From positions 203,191-267,190 of the forward strand of contig NZ_SJPM01000011.1 in assembly GCF_007859915.1 (NCBI RefSeq): a DNA stretch of 64,000 nucleotides, read 5' to 3'. Shown here piece by piece: positions 6,041 to 62,795 of this stretch. Made by a program: the position numbers and the translations under genes. Under the pieces are notes generated by a model. The model was not told the origin of the DNA. It did no database searches and was given only the letters and a program-made list of their open reading frames with translations. Position 1 is the stretch's first letter; every line of letters starts with the position of its first letter. Source of the DNA: Neorhodopirellula pilleata (lineage in GTDB: Bacteria; Planctomycetota; Planctomycetia; Pirellulales; Pirellulaceae).

Positions 6041-6206
6041 GCGGCGTGCTGACTTAATCGTAACCCGAAGCGTGAGTTTTGAAGTTGCGCTTTTGCCTGT
6101 GGCATTGGTTTATCGTAACCCGACGCGTAAGCGAGGGATGAGTCAATATCAATTATCCCTCGCTTACGCAGCGGGTTACGATTAAATCAACAGACCGCTA
6201 GCTCCG
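6041..6206. repeat. Intergenic palindrome of the CCCGAAGCG/CCGCTGCG family
   Basis: One intact hairpin pairs CCCGACGCGTAAGCGAGGG with CCCTCGCTTACGCAGCGGG across a GAGTCAATATCAATT loop. It is preceded by a half copy (CCCGAAGCGTGAG) and followed by TAAATCAACAGACCGCTAGC. It lies between the convergent ends of the surface protein and the GH5 gene. Confidence 0.8.
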
Positions 6207-51760: not shown

Positions 51761-53263
51761 ATGGGAAAGCCGACCGGATTCAAAGAGTTTGATCGCGAAA
51801 AAGTGCCATGGCGTTTGCCGGTCGTTCGCATCAATGACTACGACGAAATCTACACCGAACACAAAACCGAACAGCTCAAGACCCAAGGCGCTCGATGCAT
51901 GGATTGCGGCGTTCCGTTTTGCCAGTCGGCCAGTGGTTGCCCGATCGACAACTTGATTCCCGAGTGGAATGACTTGGTCTATAACAATCGCTGGAAAGAA
52001 GCGATCGAGCGATTGCACAAGACCAACAACTTCCCTGAATTCACCGGTCGGGTATGCCCCGCTCCGTGTGAGGGTGCCTGTGTGCTCGGCATCACCAACC
52101 CTCCCGTGACGATCAAGAACATCGAAAACGCGATCGTCGATCGGGCTTGGGCGGAAGGTTGGATTAAGCCAGAACCACCGCAGTCACGAACCGGCAAGAA
52201 AGTCGCGATCGTCGGCAGCGGTCCGGCCGGACTCACCGCCGCCGACCAGCTCAACAAGGCCGGTCATTTGGTCACCGTGTTCGAACGGGAAGACCGAATC
52301 GGCGGTTTGTTGCAGTACGGCATCCCGAACATGAAACTGTCCAAAGACGCCGTCCAGCGACGCGTCGACAAGATGACTGCCGAAGGCATCGAATTTCGAA
52401 CCAGCGTGAACGTCGGCAAAGACATCTCGCCCAACGAGTTGCGTGAACAATACGACGCCGTTCTGTTGGCGTGTGGTGCGACAAAACCTCGCGATTTGCC
52501 GATCGCCAATCGAGATGCCAAGGGCGTTTATTTCGCGATGGAGTTCTTGACCGCCAACACGCAACAACGCGTTCACGGTGACAACCTCAACGGCCGCTTC
52601 ATCAGCGCCGAAGGCAAAGACGTGATCGTCATCGGTGGCGGTGACACGGGGACCGATTGCATCGGCACGAGTATCCGACATGGTTGCCGTTCGCTCGTTA
52701 ACTTTGAACTTCTTCCCAAACCGCCTGAAGGTCGCGCGTCGGATAACCCATGGCCGGAATGGCCGCGTATCTTCCGCGTCGATTATGGTCACGAGGAAGC
52801 CGAAGCCAAGTTCGGCAAAGACCCGCGTGAGTATCAGCTCCTCAGCAAAGAGTTCTTAGTCGATGGGGATGGCAAACTCAAAGGCATCAAGACCGTCCAA
52901 GTTCAATGGACCAAAACCGCAGAAGGCGGATGGCAGATGTCCGAAGTCGAAGGCAGCGAGAAGGACTGGCCGGCGCAGTTGATTCTGCTCGCGATGGGTT
53001 TCCTCGGTCCCGAGCAGTACGTCGCCGAGAAGCTCGGACTGGAAACCGATGCACGCAGTAACTTCCAAGCCGAACACGGCAAGTTCGCGACCAACCTCGA
53101 AGGCGTCTTTGCCGCCGGCGATTGCCGCCGTGGCCAAAGCCTCGTCGTCTGGGCGATCAACGAAGGCCGTGGTGCCGCGCGATCGATCGACATCTATCTC
53201 GAAGGCACCAGCACGCTGGCCGCTCCCGGGATTACGATGGGAACGGCTCTGGCCGGCGTTTAG
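51761..53263 (+). CDS. gltD: Glutamate synthase, small (beta) subunit
   Basis: 500 residues from the ATG at 51761 ([17 protein letters not shown]). The N-terminal domain binds two 4Fe-4S clusters ([15 protein letters not shown] and CPAPCEGAC). The FAD loop is [17 protein letters not shown] and the NADPH loop [15 protein letters not shown]. It feeds electrons from NAD(P)H to the large subunit. It pairs with gltB upstream to complete the GOGAT enzyme. Confidence 0.97.
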
Positions 53264-53315
53264 GGATTCATGATCGAGCGTAACGCATAACGGCCGAACG
53301 GCTCGTGCTTGTATC

Positions 53316-53520
53316 GCTCCCCTGCCAGCTCGTCTGGCAGGAAGCCGAGGTTGGCAAGCTAGACACGAGCCGCAGTTTTCCCAACCTTCCGAGTTTCACT
53401 TGTGCTCGCCGCTTGAAGCGGCGAGCACAAGTGAAACTCGGAAGGTTGGGAGGGCGTCGGTGTCTAGCTTGCAAACCTTATTCACCCACGAGACGAGCTC
53501 GTGGGGGTCAAAAAGATGTG
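53316..53520 (+). repeat. Structured repeat, copy A (three hairpins)
   Basis: CCTGCCAG / CTGGCAGG forms a first hairpin. AGGTTGGCAAGCTAGACAC pairs with GTGTCTAGCTTGCAAACCT (one mismatch) around a perfect 35-bp stem (53380-53414 with 53416-53450). CCCACGAG / CTCGTGGG forms the last hairpin. The arrangement and most bases match copy B at 54791-54996. The right flank GTAGGATAAGGAG resembles the right terminus of copy B, but the left terminus is not recognisable. It fills the gap between gltD and lpxK; a 72-residue open frame across it is not counted as a gene. Confidence 0.88.
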
Positions 53521-53657
53521 TAGGATAAGGAGGGCTCCCGCCTGGGAACGGACTGCCACTGAGGCTCCGCCTCCCGAACCCCAAGTCCCCGAACTCGTCC
53601 GGGGAATACAATCGAGTTCGCACACGACACGAGCCAATCACCGACAAGTCCATCACC

Positions 53658-54728
53658 ATGAATTTCGATCATCGTTCCCTACTCAGCGGTGAGTCGAAAG
53701 GGCCCCGAGCATGGGCAACACGGTCGGGCCTGCATGTGGCGAGTTGGCTCTACGGAGCTGCAGCCCGATATCGTCGTTTCCAATACGATCAAGGTCGCAA
53801 GCCGATCCTCCGAGCCGATGTGCCCGTGATCAGCGTCGGCAATCTCACGACCGGCGGCACGGGCAAAACACCGATCGTTTGCGAAATCTGTTCGAGTTTG
53901 CGCGAAATGGGGCTCCGTGTTTCCATCGTCAGTCGTGGCTACGGTGCGGGCGAGTCGGGCGTCAACGACGAAGCCATGGAGATCGCCGCGAGGTTACCTG
54001 ACGTGCCCCACGTCCAGCATCCCGACCGAGTCGAAGCGGCACGGATTGCCGTCGACGAACTCGAAGCCGAAGTGATCGTGATGGATGACGGTTTTCAACA
54101 TCGACGTTTGCACCGGGATCTGGATATCGTCGTCATCGACGCGACCTGCCCGTTCGGGTTCGGTCATCTTTTACCGCGAGGCTATCTTCGCGAGCCGGCG
54201 AGTAGTTTGTCTCGAGCAGGACTCGTGGTTCTCACGCGAACCGACCAGGTAGCCGCCCAACAAATCCAAAGCATCCGATCACAAGTGCATCGCCATGCAC
54301 CGGAGATCGAGATGATTGAGACGGTTCATCGGCCGGTTTCGATCGGTTTCGAGCATACTGCCAAACGATCCATCGAGACGCTCAAAAATCGTCCGATCGG
54401 ATTGATCTCAGCGATCGGCAATCCGGATGCGTTTGAGCGAACCGTCCGTGCATGTGGTGGGATTGTGCGGGATCATTTTCGTTTGCCCGATCATGACGGC
54501 TACGATCGTGACACTCGAAAAGATTTGCGTGCGTGGGTGGACGCACTCAAGAGTAAAGGTGAACTGCGGACGATCCTTTGCACGCACAAGGATCACGTCA
54601 AGCTCGCCACCGATCAGATCGCCGGAGTCGAGCTCGGTTTTTTGATGATTGACTTGCAAATCGTCAGCGACGGAGGTGCGGAACTCTTGGGTCGACGTCT
54701 TACCGAGACGACAAGCCGTCAGTTTTGA
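53658..54728 (+). CDS. lpxK: Tetraacyldisaccharide 4'-kinase
   Basis: 356 residues. LpxK phosphorylates the lipid A precursor at the 4' position on the inner face of the cytoplasmic membrane. The P-loop [12 protein letters not shown] (about 61-72), the RGYG element after it and [19 protein letters not shown] are diagnostic. An amphipathic or membrane helix is expected at about 20-40 ([18 protein letters not shown]). It implies lipid A and an outer membrane in this organism. It stands alone, bracketed by two directly repeated copies of a structured element. Confidence 0.93.
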
Positions 54729-54760
54729 AGTCGCACTTTTATCGTAACCCGCTGCGTAAG

Positions 54761-55008
54761 CTCTTTATACCCCACAAGTCCTCATGGATTGCTCCCCTGC
54801 CAGCTTGTCTGGCAGGAAGCCGAGGTTAGCAAGCTAGACACAAGCGGCAATTTTCCCAGTCCACCGAGTTTCACTTGTGCTCGCCGCTTCAAGCGGCGAG
54901 CACAAGTGAAACTCGGTGGACTGGGAGGGCGTCGGTGTCTAGCTCGCGAACCTTATTCACCCACGAGACGAGCTCGTGGGGGTCAAAAAAGATGTGGGGT
55001 ATAAAGAG
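54761..55008 (+). mobile_element. MITE-like element, copy B: 16-bp termini and 9-bp target duplication
   Basis: Termini CTCTTTATACCCCACA (54761-54776) and its exact complement (54993-55008) are flanked by the direct repeat CTGCGTAAG (54752-54760 and 55009-55017). It is inserted in the arm of a common intergenic palindrome, which reads on correctly if the element and one CTGCGTAAG are removed. Inside lies the three-hairpin structure of copy A, with a perfect 35-bp stem (54855-54889 with 54891-54925). There is no transposase gene, so it would have been moved in trans. Confidence 0.88.
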
Positions 55009-55228
55009 CTGCGTAAGCGAGGGATAATTGATATTGACTCATCCCTCGCTCACGCTTCGGGTTACGATGCAAACTAAATCAACAGCCCGCTAGCGCCGTG
55101 TTGATTTGATCGTAACCCGAAGCGTGAGCGAGGGATTCAGCGCCATTAAGTCCTTTGTATGCATCCCTCGCTCACGCTTCGGGTTTTGATGAGGACTAAA
55201 TCAACAGCCCGCTAGCGCCGTCGGCTCA
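55009..55228. repeat. Two copies of the common intergenic palindrome, the first split by the MITE
   Basis: The first copy pairs GCTGCGTAAGCGAGGG with CCTCGCTCACGCTTCGGG and has lost contiguity at its left arm to the element at 54761-55008. The second (about 55080-55225) is intact: CGTAACCCGAAGCGTGAGCG / CGCTCACGCTTCGGGTTTTG, with outer TAAATCAACAGCCCGCTAGC and GTCGGCTCAC. The end at about 55253-55262 (GACGAAGCAC) matches the 40284-type terminus. The 801-base gap between lpxK and the DUF1501 gene is all repeat. Confidence 0.85.
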
Positions 55229-55339
55229 CGTCACAAACCCTCGTTTTTGGTACTGACGAAGCACGAGTGCCGATCGATTCTTCATCCGAAGTGCGTTTGA
55301 GAACGTCCCCTTCAGTCCGATGAGGCTGGTATCATTAAG

Positions 55340-55437
55340 AGCCTATCCGAAAAGGGGTCTGACCCTCTCCAGCGAAACCAGAAAAGCAACGAAAACTGAC
55401 TCGCCTCCAAAGGGTCAGACCCCTCTTCGGATAGGCT
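55340..55437. repeat. Palindromic element related to 27357-27459, different outer arms
   Basis: AGCCTATCCGAAAAGGGG followed by TCTGACCCT pairs with AGGGTCAGACCCCTC then TTCGGATAGGCT, one mismatch. The core and inner sequence match 27357-27459 in inverted orientation, but the outer arms (AGCCTATCCGAA against AGAACGTGTTTTAA) do not. The phrase TAAGAGCCTATCCGAAAAGG recurs alone at 36301-36320, upstream of the epimerase gene. Confidence 0.85.
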
Positions 55438-55529
55438 TAAAAGACTCCTAGGACGGTCCGTTGTCCAGCGAAACGAACCTGGGCCGTTCGACGCTTGGAA
55501 ATACCGTTCGTTCAAGAGACACCGCAAGA

Positions 55530-56867
55530 ATGATAAAACTTAAACGAACCTGGCATCAACGATGTGACGGTGTTCGACGTCGAGATCTTCTTCATGTCGG
55601 CGGTCTAACTGCCCTGGGGATGGGCCTGCAAGATTGGTTGGGGTGCCGGTCGACAGGTGCCGGTTCGATCGAACCGGTTCGAGCACGATCCTGTATCCTA
55701 ATTTGGCTTGACGGTGGCCCCAGTCATCTCGAAACGTTCGATCTCAAACCAGACGCTCCGGCGGAAGTGCGCGGTCCCTTTCAACCGATTCGTACCAATG
55801 TGCCCGGGATCTTGATTAGCGAGTACTTGCCCGAAACCGCCAAGGTTATGGATAAAATCGCGATCATTCGTTCGATGACTTCCACGCTCGGCGAGCACAA
55901 TTTCGCCAGTCATTACTTACTCACGGGATACAAGCCGACTCCCGCGTTGGTGTATCCCGGCATGCCGGCGGTGGTATCTCACTTGGATGATGGCTCGACG
56001 GCGATGCCGTCAAATGTGGCCCTTGATCGCCCCAATGCAATGGCTGGTTCCGGTTACTTAGGCAGTTCCGGTGCGCCGTTTGTGGTCAGCGGCGATCCGT
56101 CGAGGAGCGACTTTCGCGTGCAAGACCTATCGCCCGCGGCGGACCTTGCCCAGCACCGTCAAGCCCGTCGCCGACGTCTCCGCGATGCCGTGGACGATTT
56201 CGTTCGGGGGCAAGACCAGGCTCGTCCCTCGAACCAAAACGCTTCGGCGTTCGATCAGGCTTACGACTTAATCGCTTCGGCAGAAGCCCGCCAAGCCTTC
56301 GACCTGGACCAAGAACCGGCAACGATCCGCGCCCGCTACGGTGCTTATACGCTCGGGCAGAGTTGCTTGATGGCAAGGCGATTAGTCGAGGCAGGTACCA
56401 AGTTTGTGACCGTCACTGATCGCGGTTGGGACACGCACGAACAGCTTTTCACGCGGCTCAAGGAAGGCTATACGGGCGGAAGTGTCGGTAAGATTCCCAA
56501 ACTCGATACCGCGTATTCGGCACTCGTTGCCGATTTAGCGGAACGTGGTTTACTCGACACGACACTCGTGATCCTGATGGGCGAGTTCGGGCGAACGCCG
56601 AAACTCAATCCAAGTGGTGGACGTGATCACTGGCCGCGCGCGTTCAGCGTCGCACTGGCTGGGGGAGGCATCCAAGGGGGCCAGGTCATTGGTCGATCCG
56701 ATTCGCACGGCGAACAACCTGCCGATCGCCCGGTCACGCCAGCGGATTTGGTTCGGACGATTTACAACCAGATCGGCATCGACGGCGATCATGAACTGCG
56801 AACCTCCGACGGACGACCGGTGCAAATCAATCGCGACGGCCGATTGATCCATGAGCTAATCTCTTGA
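55530..56867 (+). CDS. DUF1501 family secreted protein
   Basis: 445 residues from the ATG at 55530. The N-terminus has a twin-arginine-like signal (RRRDLLHVGGLTALGMGL, about 14-31). The DUF1501 fold, related to alkaline phosphatases and sulfatases, shows CILIWLDGGPSHLETFDLKP, GEHNFASHYLLTGY, FVTVTDRGWDTH, LVILMGEFGRTPKLNPSGG and GGRDHW. These proteins are very abundant in planctomycetes; their reaction is not established. Usually a large DUF1549/DUF1553 protein gene precedes it, but here only repeats do. The stop overlaps the WD40 gene. Confidence 0.9.
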   Translation: MIKLKRTWHQRCDGVRRRDLLHVGGLTALGMGLQDWLGCRSTGAGSIEPVRARSCILIWLDGGPSHLETFDLKPDAPAEVRGPFQPIRTNVPGILISEYLPETAKVMDKIAIIRSMTSTLGEHNFASHYLLTGYKPTPALVYPGMPAVVSHLDDGSTAMPSNVALDRPNAMAGSGYLGSSGAPFVVSGDPSRSDFRVQDLSPAADLAQHRQARRRRLRDAVDDFVRGQDQARPSNQNASAFDQAYDLIASAEARQAFDLDQEPATIRARYGAYTLGQSCLMARRLVEAGTKFVTVTDRGWDTHEQLFTRLKEGYTGGSVGKIPKLDTAYSALVADLAERGLLDTTLVILMGEFGRTPKLNPSGGRDHWPRAFSVALAGGGIQGGQVIGRSDSHGEQPADRPVTPADLVRTIYNQIGIDGDHELRTSDGRPVQINRDGRLIHELIS

Positions 56868-62641: not shown

Positions 62642-62795
62642 CTCGCTTGCGGGCTGTTGATTTAGTGTGCATCGTAATTCGTAGTGTGAGTTTTGTAGTT
62701 GCACTTTTATCGTAACCCGCTGCGTAAGCGAGGGATCATTGATACTGACTCATCCCTCGCTTACGCCGCGGGTTACGATTAATTCAACAGCCCGC
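62642..62795. repeat. Common intergenic palindrome between two sulfatase genes
   Basis: GTAACCCGCTGCGTAAGCG pairs with CGCTTACGCCGCGGGTTAC (one mismatch) around CATTGATACTGACTC. It is framed by GCGGGCTGTTGATTTAGT on the left and TTCAACAGCCCGCTAGCG on the right. It occupies most of the 284 bases between the two genes. Confidence 0.85.

Follow-up and report, generated by a model that had tools for sequence, protein, structure and literature searches.

In Sinorhizobium meliloti, all nine chromosomal copies of ISRm22, an IS of the IS4 family, lie in REP palindromes and on the axis of palindromy; three of the nine lack perfect direct repeats, and recombination hybrids were proposed for the imperfect ones (PMC1525189, in the portion available to us). 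Members of the IS50 subgroup, as described in the accessible part of PMC2266710, have ends of the form CW------Y---CA-A--W-, are 1350-1550 bp long and are flanked by direct repeats of 8-9 bp. The locus described here lies in a 64,000-nucleotide stretch of the Neorhodopirellula pilleata genome (hereafter the window; G000:C11:203191-267190 of an 8.5-Mb draft in 73 contigs) and contains a non-autonomous element (MITE) at 54761-55008, which very probably owes its movement into a palindrome to a Tn5-like transposase acting in trans, one that by its features belongs to the IS50 subgroup of the IS4 family.

The element is 248 bp long and lies on the plus strand. As proposed in the original prediction, its 16-bp termini (54761-54776 and 54993-55008) are exact reverse complements, and these two ends are the only places in the window that match the 16-mer with up to three mismatches; shuffled windows gave 0.12 expected matches, with two or more matches in 1 of 100 shuffles. 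The ends recognised by a transposase are probably 19 bp rather than 16 bp long, which refines the predicted termini: the left end, 54761-54779 on the plus strand, is CTCTTTATACCCCACAAGT, of which 16 bp are inverted-repeated, and the right end, 54990-55008 on the minus strand, reads inward as CTCTTTATACCCCACATCT. As single-stranded DNA, the element is predicted to fold into a near-complete hairpin (-101.6 kcal/mol, z-score -18.45) composed of an end stem, a left subterminal hairpin (54796-54816, plus strand; CCTGCCAG-CTTGT-CTGGCAGG), a right subterminal hairpin (54960-54980, plus strand; CCCACGAG-ACGAG-CTCGTGGG), both taken from the fold, and a central hairpin (54854-54926) with two 36-nt arms that are 100% complementary and separated by 1 nt. 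ORFs of at least 80 aa do not overlap the 248 bp, and the ORF at 53658-54728, presumably lpxK, ends 32 bases before the element. The predicted lack of a transposase gene in the window holds for Tn5-like transposases (best tblastn E value, 0.077), and a tRNA search was negative. A second, degenerate copy that the original prediction had missed is present on the plus strand at 53310-53532 (89.7% identity over 224 positions, with the first 24 element positions unmatched), and its right flank is half of a palindrome of class B (GTTCCCAGGC-type; see below). Other repeats in the window include class-C palindromes at 183-508 and 55041-55190, with a repeat spacing of ~122 bp, and the inverted repeat AGCCTATCCGAAAAGGGGTCTGACCC at ~55340-55440, similar sequence to which occurs beside the MITEs at C5:106156, C2:900239, and C3:385425.

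The element is flanked by a 9-bp target duplication, CTGCGTAAG, at 54752-54760 and 55009-55017, as predicted. To the left lies one remainder of the host palindrome arm (ATCGTAACCCG, 54741-54751), which is part of a 28-mer found intact elsewhere, and to the right the other (CGAGGGAT, 55018-55025), which completes it. Removal of the MITE and one 9-mer joins ATCGTAACCCG-CTGCGTAAG-CGAGGGAT into the 28-mer ATCGTAACCCGCTGCGTAAGCGAGGGAT, and the claim that this operation restores a palindrome arm is borne out by two intact, empty copies of the 28-mer in the window without mismatches (6155-6182, minus strand; 62709-62736, plus strand); four further window sites match at one or two mismatches, with 0 expected. 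Empty targets were also found for the two other main target classes of the genome, i.e. five class-A loci (L109-L113) in which the two arms flank a 20-21-nt tip, and 27 places matching class B with two mismatches or fewer. The related-strain empty site that had been suggested was not recovered: in 12 congeners, with protein identities no higher than 68%, the ~4 kb around lpxK lacked both the palindrome and the MITE.

The original prediction depended in part on further copies with the same paired termini. The 16-mer occurs 91 times (42 forward and 49 reverse) in the N. pilleata genome at up to two mismatches, against 0 matches for a reversed-pattern control, and at least 63 two-ended copies were tabulated. 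A search with the whole element scored the best 40 of 102 candidates, all of which matched over 237-248 positions with 89-100% identity, and the true copy number may be higher. Fifty-one of the 63 copies are 246-250 bp long, seven are 160 bp or shorter and without the central hairpin, and the five others range from 241 to 620 bp. This count requires two recognisable ends and therefore excludes the one-ended pieces at C1:122886, C1:211182, C2:154430, C6:269641, C6:456965, and C25:31244; a further copy at C9:271671 (L121) was also uncounted. In two copies, L069 (C9:68525-69029, 505 bp) and L082 (C52:1036-1655, 620 bp), stacked class-C palindromes stand in place of the MITE core, such that repeats are nested in a MITE that is itself nested in repeats.

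An arm of a palindromic repeat is present on at least one side of 60 of the 63 copies. A script in which an arm on one side suffices for the label assigned 38 copies to class A (AAGTGGCATAGGCTTCCAGC), 18 to class B (GTTCCCAGGCNNNNGCCTGGGAAC), and 3 to class C (the window type), and the 60th, C5:387633, was assigned to the palindrome CCCCATGCTTACGCATGGGG by reading. A tree of the 52 copies of 238-251 bp comprises two subfamilies: one of 35 rows (30 class A, 3 class B, and 2 other) and a smaller one of 17 rows (12 class B, 3 class C including the window copy, and 2 other). The target classes are clustered yet mixed on the tree (8 changes, compared with a mean of 19.8 after shuffling). In 39 other genomes, no full-length match was found among the candidates scored, which numbered at most 19 per genome (the best 19 of 107 in G006, 19 of 27 in G005, and 19 of 20 in G004), and pieces of 23-42 bp were matched in 3 of the 39. 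A scan of a collection of genome contigs, to which N. pilleata possibly does not belong, gave 0 matches to the left end.

Elements that could have supplied the transposase were identified in other genera of the same family. The 19-mer of the MITE type was searched at up to two mismatches in 396 genomes of the order Pirellulales, including N. pilleata, and was found in 20. It bounds complete IS elements of 1568 bp in G261 (CAMDKL010000063.1) and 1574 bp in G255 (SYJV01000127.1), the ends of which read CTTTTTATACCCCACAAGT, and the same end type, differing at one position of the 16-mer, is present in JAJTFB010000116.1 and JAEUIH010000182.1. The right end of the MITE matches the G255 IS end CTTTTTATACCCCACATCT over 25 bp at 96% identity (E value, 3.4e-7), and outside the terminal ~25 bp on one side and 20 bp on the opposite side, MITE and IS showed no clear similarity. 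The same asymmetry of the ends is also found in the G255 IS and the MITE, one end carrying ACAAGT and the other ACATCT, while the G261 IS carries ACAAGT at both. The transposases of the two IS elements (489 aa) contain the domains Tnp_DNA_bind, DDE_Tnp_1, and Dimer_Tnp_Tn5 and match NF033590 (IS4 family) with E values of 2.1e-88 and 8.8e-91; the G255 protein also matches Tn5 transposase structures (best E value, 1.5e-27). The YREK pattern was found in four of five proteins checked, the fifth (C4) being cut off inside the motif. The proposed search for a transposase gene with the same ends succeeded in other genera; in the draft genome of N. pilleata, it revealed no intact IS bearing the ends of the MITE.

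At the eight DDE_Tnp_1 (PF01609) loci of N. pilleata, we looked for inverted repeats and for a match to the MITE end. One of these loci, L097, has a related end and led to remnants of a Tn5-like sister IS, of which seven pieces were found, all broken or truncated; a remnant transposase contains Dimer_Tnp_Tn5 (E value, 1.6e-24). The six sister-IS ends seen are mutually identical (CTCACTGTACCACACAAGT), agree with the MITE at 15 of 19 bases, and all adjoin CTGCGTAAG or its complement, which is the site of the window copy and of the MITE at C1:938831; the sister-IS end adjoins the target palindrome of the window at the same base as the MITE. The N. pilleata proteins closest to the G255/G261-type IS are 38-42% (broken copies) and 30% (an intact IS with other ends, CTTAGGTTT...) identical. 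The genome contains an intact Tn5-like IS at L105 (G000:C5, 334-2026), with ends CTTAGGTTTRCCCACATT and an 8-bp, dyad-centred duplication, GGCCAGCC. Because no intact cognate IS was found in the draft genome, the MITE family is probably immobile in N. pilleata now or moved by a copy lost in assembly, and such an IS may be hidden in the gaps between the contigs.

Two further groups of elements were encountered in these searches. An IS110-family element (DEDD_Tnp_IS110, Transposase_20) is located at a target/MITE junction in L066 (G000:C6:230000-236000, at ~C6:232863-234859); one of its ends adjoins a MITE end in C2:188951, C6:232728, C6:394685, and C10:66294, and the other follows a GCTTCCAGC-type arm in L116, L117, L122, and L123. 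It was rejected as the parent of the MITE, since its ends are unrelated, and is regarded as a neighbour of four copies. In the order Pirellulales, the end pattern gave 97 matches in G398 and 13 in G364, those listed being mostly CTYGTTATACCACACAAGT, and a Tn5-like IS with CTYGTTATACCACACAAGT-type ends is present in G340; the G398 and G364 matches perhaps represent another MITE burst of the same kind.

Taken together, the many copies, the inverted ends, the direct duplication, the paralogous empty targets, and the autonomous relatives with identical ends make the insertion of a non-autonomous element into a pre-existing palindrome the best-supported reading of the sequence, in agreement with the predicted order of events. 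By analogy with Tn5, movement would occur by cut and paste. We infer that a transposase of the Tn5-like type would bind the 19-bp ends and cut the MITE out, that the excised element would be pasted in by a staggered cut on or near the two-fold axis of a palindromic repeat, and that gap repair would leave a direct duplication centred on the axis of the target. For the window copy, the target would have been one unit of the 28-bp class of intergenic palindromes, and the duplication would be the 9 bp observed.

Several other readings were weighed against this one. That the inverted repeat arose by chance in a repeat-rich intergenic region can practically be dismissed, given the high copy number against 0 matches of the reversed-pattern control, the full-length copies, and the exact empty sites. 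A structured RNA or regulatory repeat with a selected hairpin, rather than a transposable element, is very improbable. The fold z-score of the element would suit such a repeat, as would the consensus stem over the 52 copies, in which 98.6% of the cells are paired (a figure inflated by the shared ancestry of the copies) and in which 17 pairs carry 65 double changes, a number that falls to 4-8 if one side is slid. However, the seven copies of 160 bp or shorter dispense with the central hairpin, no Rfam match at the gathering score was obtained in 52500-56500, the target duplications, inverted ends, and IS elements with the same ends are those of a transposable element, and symmetric changes are also expected from the templated correction of quasi-palindromes. 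The upkeep of the palindrome may reflect either selection on the hairpin or such correction. REP/BIME sequences with a RAYT (IS200/IS605 type, with a GTAG or CGTC tag, a tyrosine transposase, and no target duplication) are unlikely because of the clean target duplication and the long inverted ends.

Rather unlikely, too, is that the MITE itself transposed little and was spread chiefly by recombination or gene conversion among palindromic repeats, or was carried along by the outer class-A repeat (termini TTAGCATCGCGTGAACA). This would account for 19 class-A copies with inverted flanks (at most one mismatch), which look as though the MITE had replaced the 20-21-nt tip of an empty repeat, and for the clustering of class-A copies on the tree (4 changes against 17.0 when shuffled). 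It is at odds with the direct duplications in 14 copies, one of them at a non-palindromic site, with the position of three class-B copies inside the class-A clade, with the occurrence of the MITE in both orientations relative to the outer repeat, and with the IS elements of other genera, which likewise have direct (G261 and JAEUIH) and inverted (G255) flanks. As a sufficient account, composite amplification driven by the outer class-A repeat was rejected, the orientation of the MITE relative to the repeat being variable and the copies with direct duplications being scattered on the tree; by eye, no clear target duplication of the class-A repeat itself was found. A variant of the preferred reading, in which the MITE is mobilised through cross-recognition by the sister IS (CTCACTGTACCACACAAGT ends) and not by an IS with MITE-identical ends (CTTTTTATACCCC-type transposase), deserves somewhat more credence but is still doubtful. 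The sister IS resides in the same genome, abuts the target 9-mer of the MITE at all six of its ends that were seen, shares the 15 end bases noted above, and retains the YREK motif in its C11 remnant; yet all seven of its pieces are defective, IS elements with MITE-identical ends exist in other genera, and the 25 bp common to the MITE and the G255 IS include subterminal bases.

The flanks of the 63 copies are direct in 14, inverted (at most one mismatch) in 22, nearly inverted in 4, and neither in 23. The direct duplications are distributed over class A (5 copies), class B (5), class C (2), and other sites (2, including the non-palindromic one). Inverted flanks also occur on the G255 IS, over at least 14 bp, and on one G004 MITE, over 14 bp with one mismatch, and are thus not confined to the N. 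pilleata MITE. Perhaps the simplest account is recombination between left-arm and right-arm insertions: one element would insert into each arm of the same palindrome, and the DNA between them would then be lost, which would lead to the replacement of the tip as observed in class A. Single-arm insertions with direct duplications survive on the left (C6:158126 and C20:61273) and on the right (C10:42280 and C9:158548), which fits this account, and no double-insertion intermediate was seen among the tabulated copies. Tip deletion by microhomology, templated correction of quasi-palindromes, and insertion at a mismatched tip were considered as alternatives.

The position of the duplication relative to the symmetry of the target was analysed by joining the flanks of each insertion and seeking the best dyad centre over 25 offsets. 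Of 78 insertions examined (63 N. pilleata MITEs, one N. pilleata IS, and 14 from relatives, which were hand-chosen and include six of nine G004 places), 24 have a direct repeat of 7-12 bp with at most one mismatch and were used. The centre of the duplication coincides with the best dyad centre in 21 of these 24 (14 as the sole best offset and 7 as ties; 1.4 expected) and in 11 of 12 target families (0.8 expected); the null takes the 25 offsets as equally likely and the insertions as independent, and the count by family is the safer figure. In the window copy, two offsets, 0 and +1, tie for the best dyad (6 of 10 pairs), and the duplication is centred on one of them. The misses are C9:158548, C52:1036, which has a perfect 10-bp duplication and 0 of 10 pairs, and C6:158126, whose right end is worn and whose 10-bp duplication may be 9 bp. 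The targets of the MITE appear to have been chosen by their symmetry and not merely as common repeats.

The duplications are 9 bp long in 13 of the 24 insertions, 10 bp in 10 (including the doubtful C6:158126), and 8 bp in one; in C...G contexts the element boundaries can be shifted by one base on both sides, which preserves the parity of these lengths but not the lengths themselves. By script, with a fit of either copy of the duplication sufficing, the length equals the hairpin loop plus 6 in 17 of 24, a rule that was formed on the same 24 insertions used to score it. Examples are GCT-TTC-AGC (9 bp), GGC-GGGA-GCC, TGC-TTAC-GCA, and GCA-GGAA-TGC (10 bp), and GGC-CA-GCC (8 bp) at the intact Tn5-like IS of N. 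pilleata. The seven failures are both class-C copies, i.e. the window copy and one other, in which the strict loop is 5 yet the duplication is 9 bp, together with C6:158126, C9:158548, C52:1036, the G261 IS, in which all four inner pairs are complementary, and the G255 MITE. It is a tentative idea, less probable than its alternatives, that the Tn5-like transposase reads the geometry of the palindrome, with both strand transfers centred on the dyad and the stagger adjusted to give duplications of 8, 9, or 10 bp, mostly the loop plus 3 bp of stem on each side. Under such a reading the transposase might act on a hairpin tip that is extruded or mismatched, and attack on a mismatched tip, if true, would produce inverted duplications directly, without recombination. 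These data suggest that the stagger of a Tn5-type transposase may vary with target symmetry rather than being fixed. Dyad-centred targeting with a variable duplication length, based on 24 insertions in 12 target families, is the part of this work that deserves specialist attention.

Like the bacterial MITEs treated in the available parts of a review (PMC10969869) and of the account of MITEAba12 (PMC6382973), the elements described here are short, have no transposase, carry inverted ends and a target duplication, lie in intergenic repeats, and fold into a hairpin. The window element has the defining traits of a MITE, being short and noncoding, with 16-bp perfect inverted repeats, a 9-bp target duplication, and at least 63 copies; the usual but not obligatory trait of ends shared with an autonomous IS of the same genome was not seen in the draft N. 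pilleata genome. No IS4-derived MITE family is named in the portion of the review available to us, in which the term IS4 occurs 0 times, and no MITE of the IS50 (Tn5) group was found there or among the literature matches listed; MITEs of this group therefore seem little described. In the present family the ends are known exactly, a transposase can be identified in relatives, and many insertions can be traced; the family also illustrates how palindromic repeats turn into stacks of nested mobile elements.

The G255 and G261 IS elements resemble the IS50 subgroup, as far as it is covered in the available text of PMC2266710, in their Tn5-type domains, the YREK motif (Y-2-R-3-E-6-K), 5'-CT ends, C13, A14, A16, and W19 of the end consensus, and a size of ~1.5 kb; compared by hand, CTTTTTATACCCCACAAGT fits the consensus at six of seven positions, position 9 being A and not Y. 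They depart from the table in that source in their lengths of 1568 and 1574 bp, against 1350-1550 bp. Among the 24 insertions analysed, duplications of 8-9 bp occur as in the table, but 10-bp ones are also present. The window element differs from the subgroup in having no transposase. In the parts of PMC1525189 at hand, neither a MITE nor a target-dependent duplication length was found for ISRm22, and a duplication length that follows the target was likewise not found in those of PMC2266710. Unlike the MITE, ISRm22 is an IS, of subgroup IS4Sa (PMC2266710, available part), with 6-bp direct repeats (PMC1525189, available part). Insertion on the axis of palindromy is already known from ISRm22 (PMC1525189, same portion), and ISRm22 and the MITE family have in common their palindromic targets, insertion on the axis, and some copies without perfect direct repeats.
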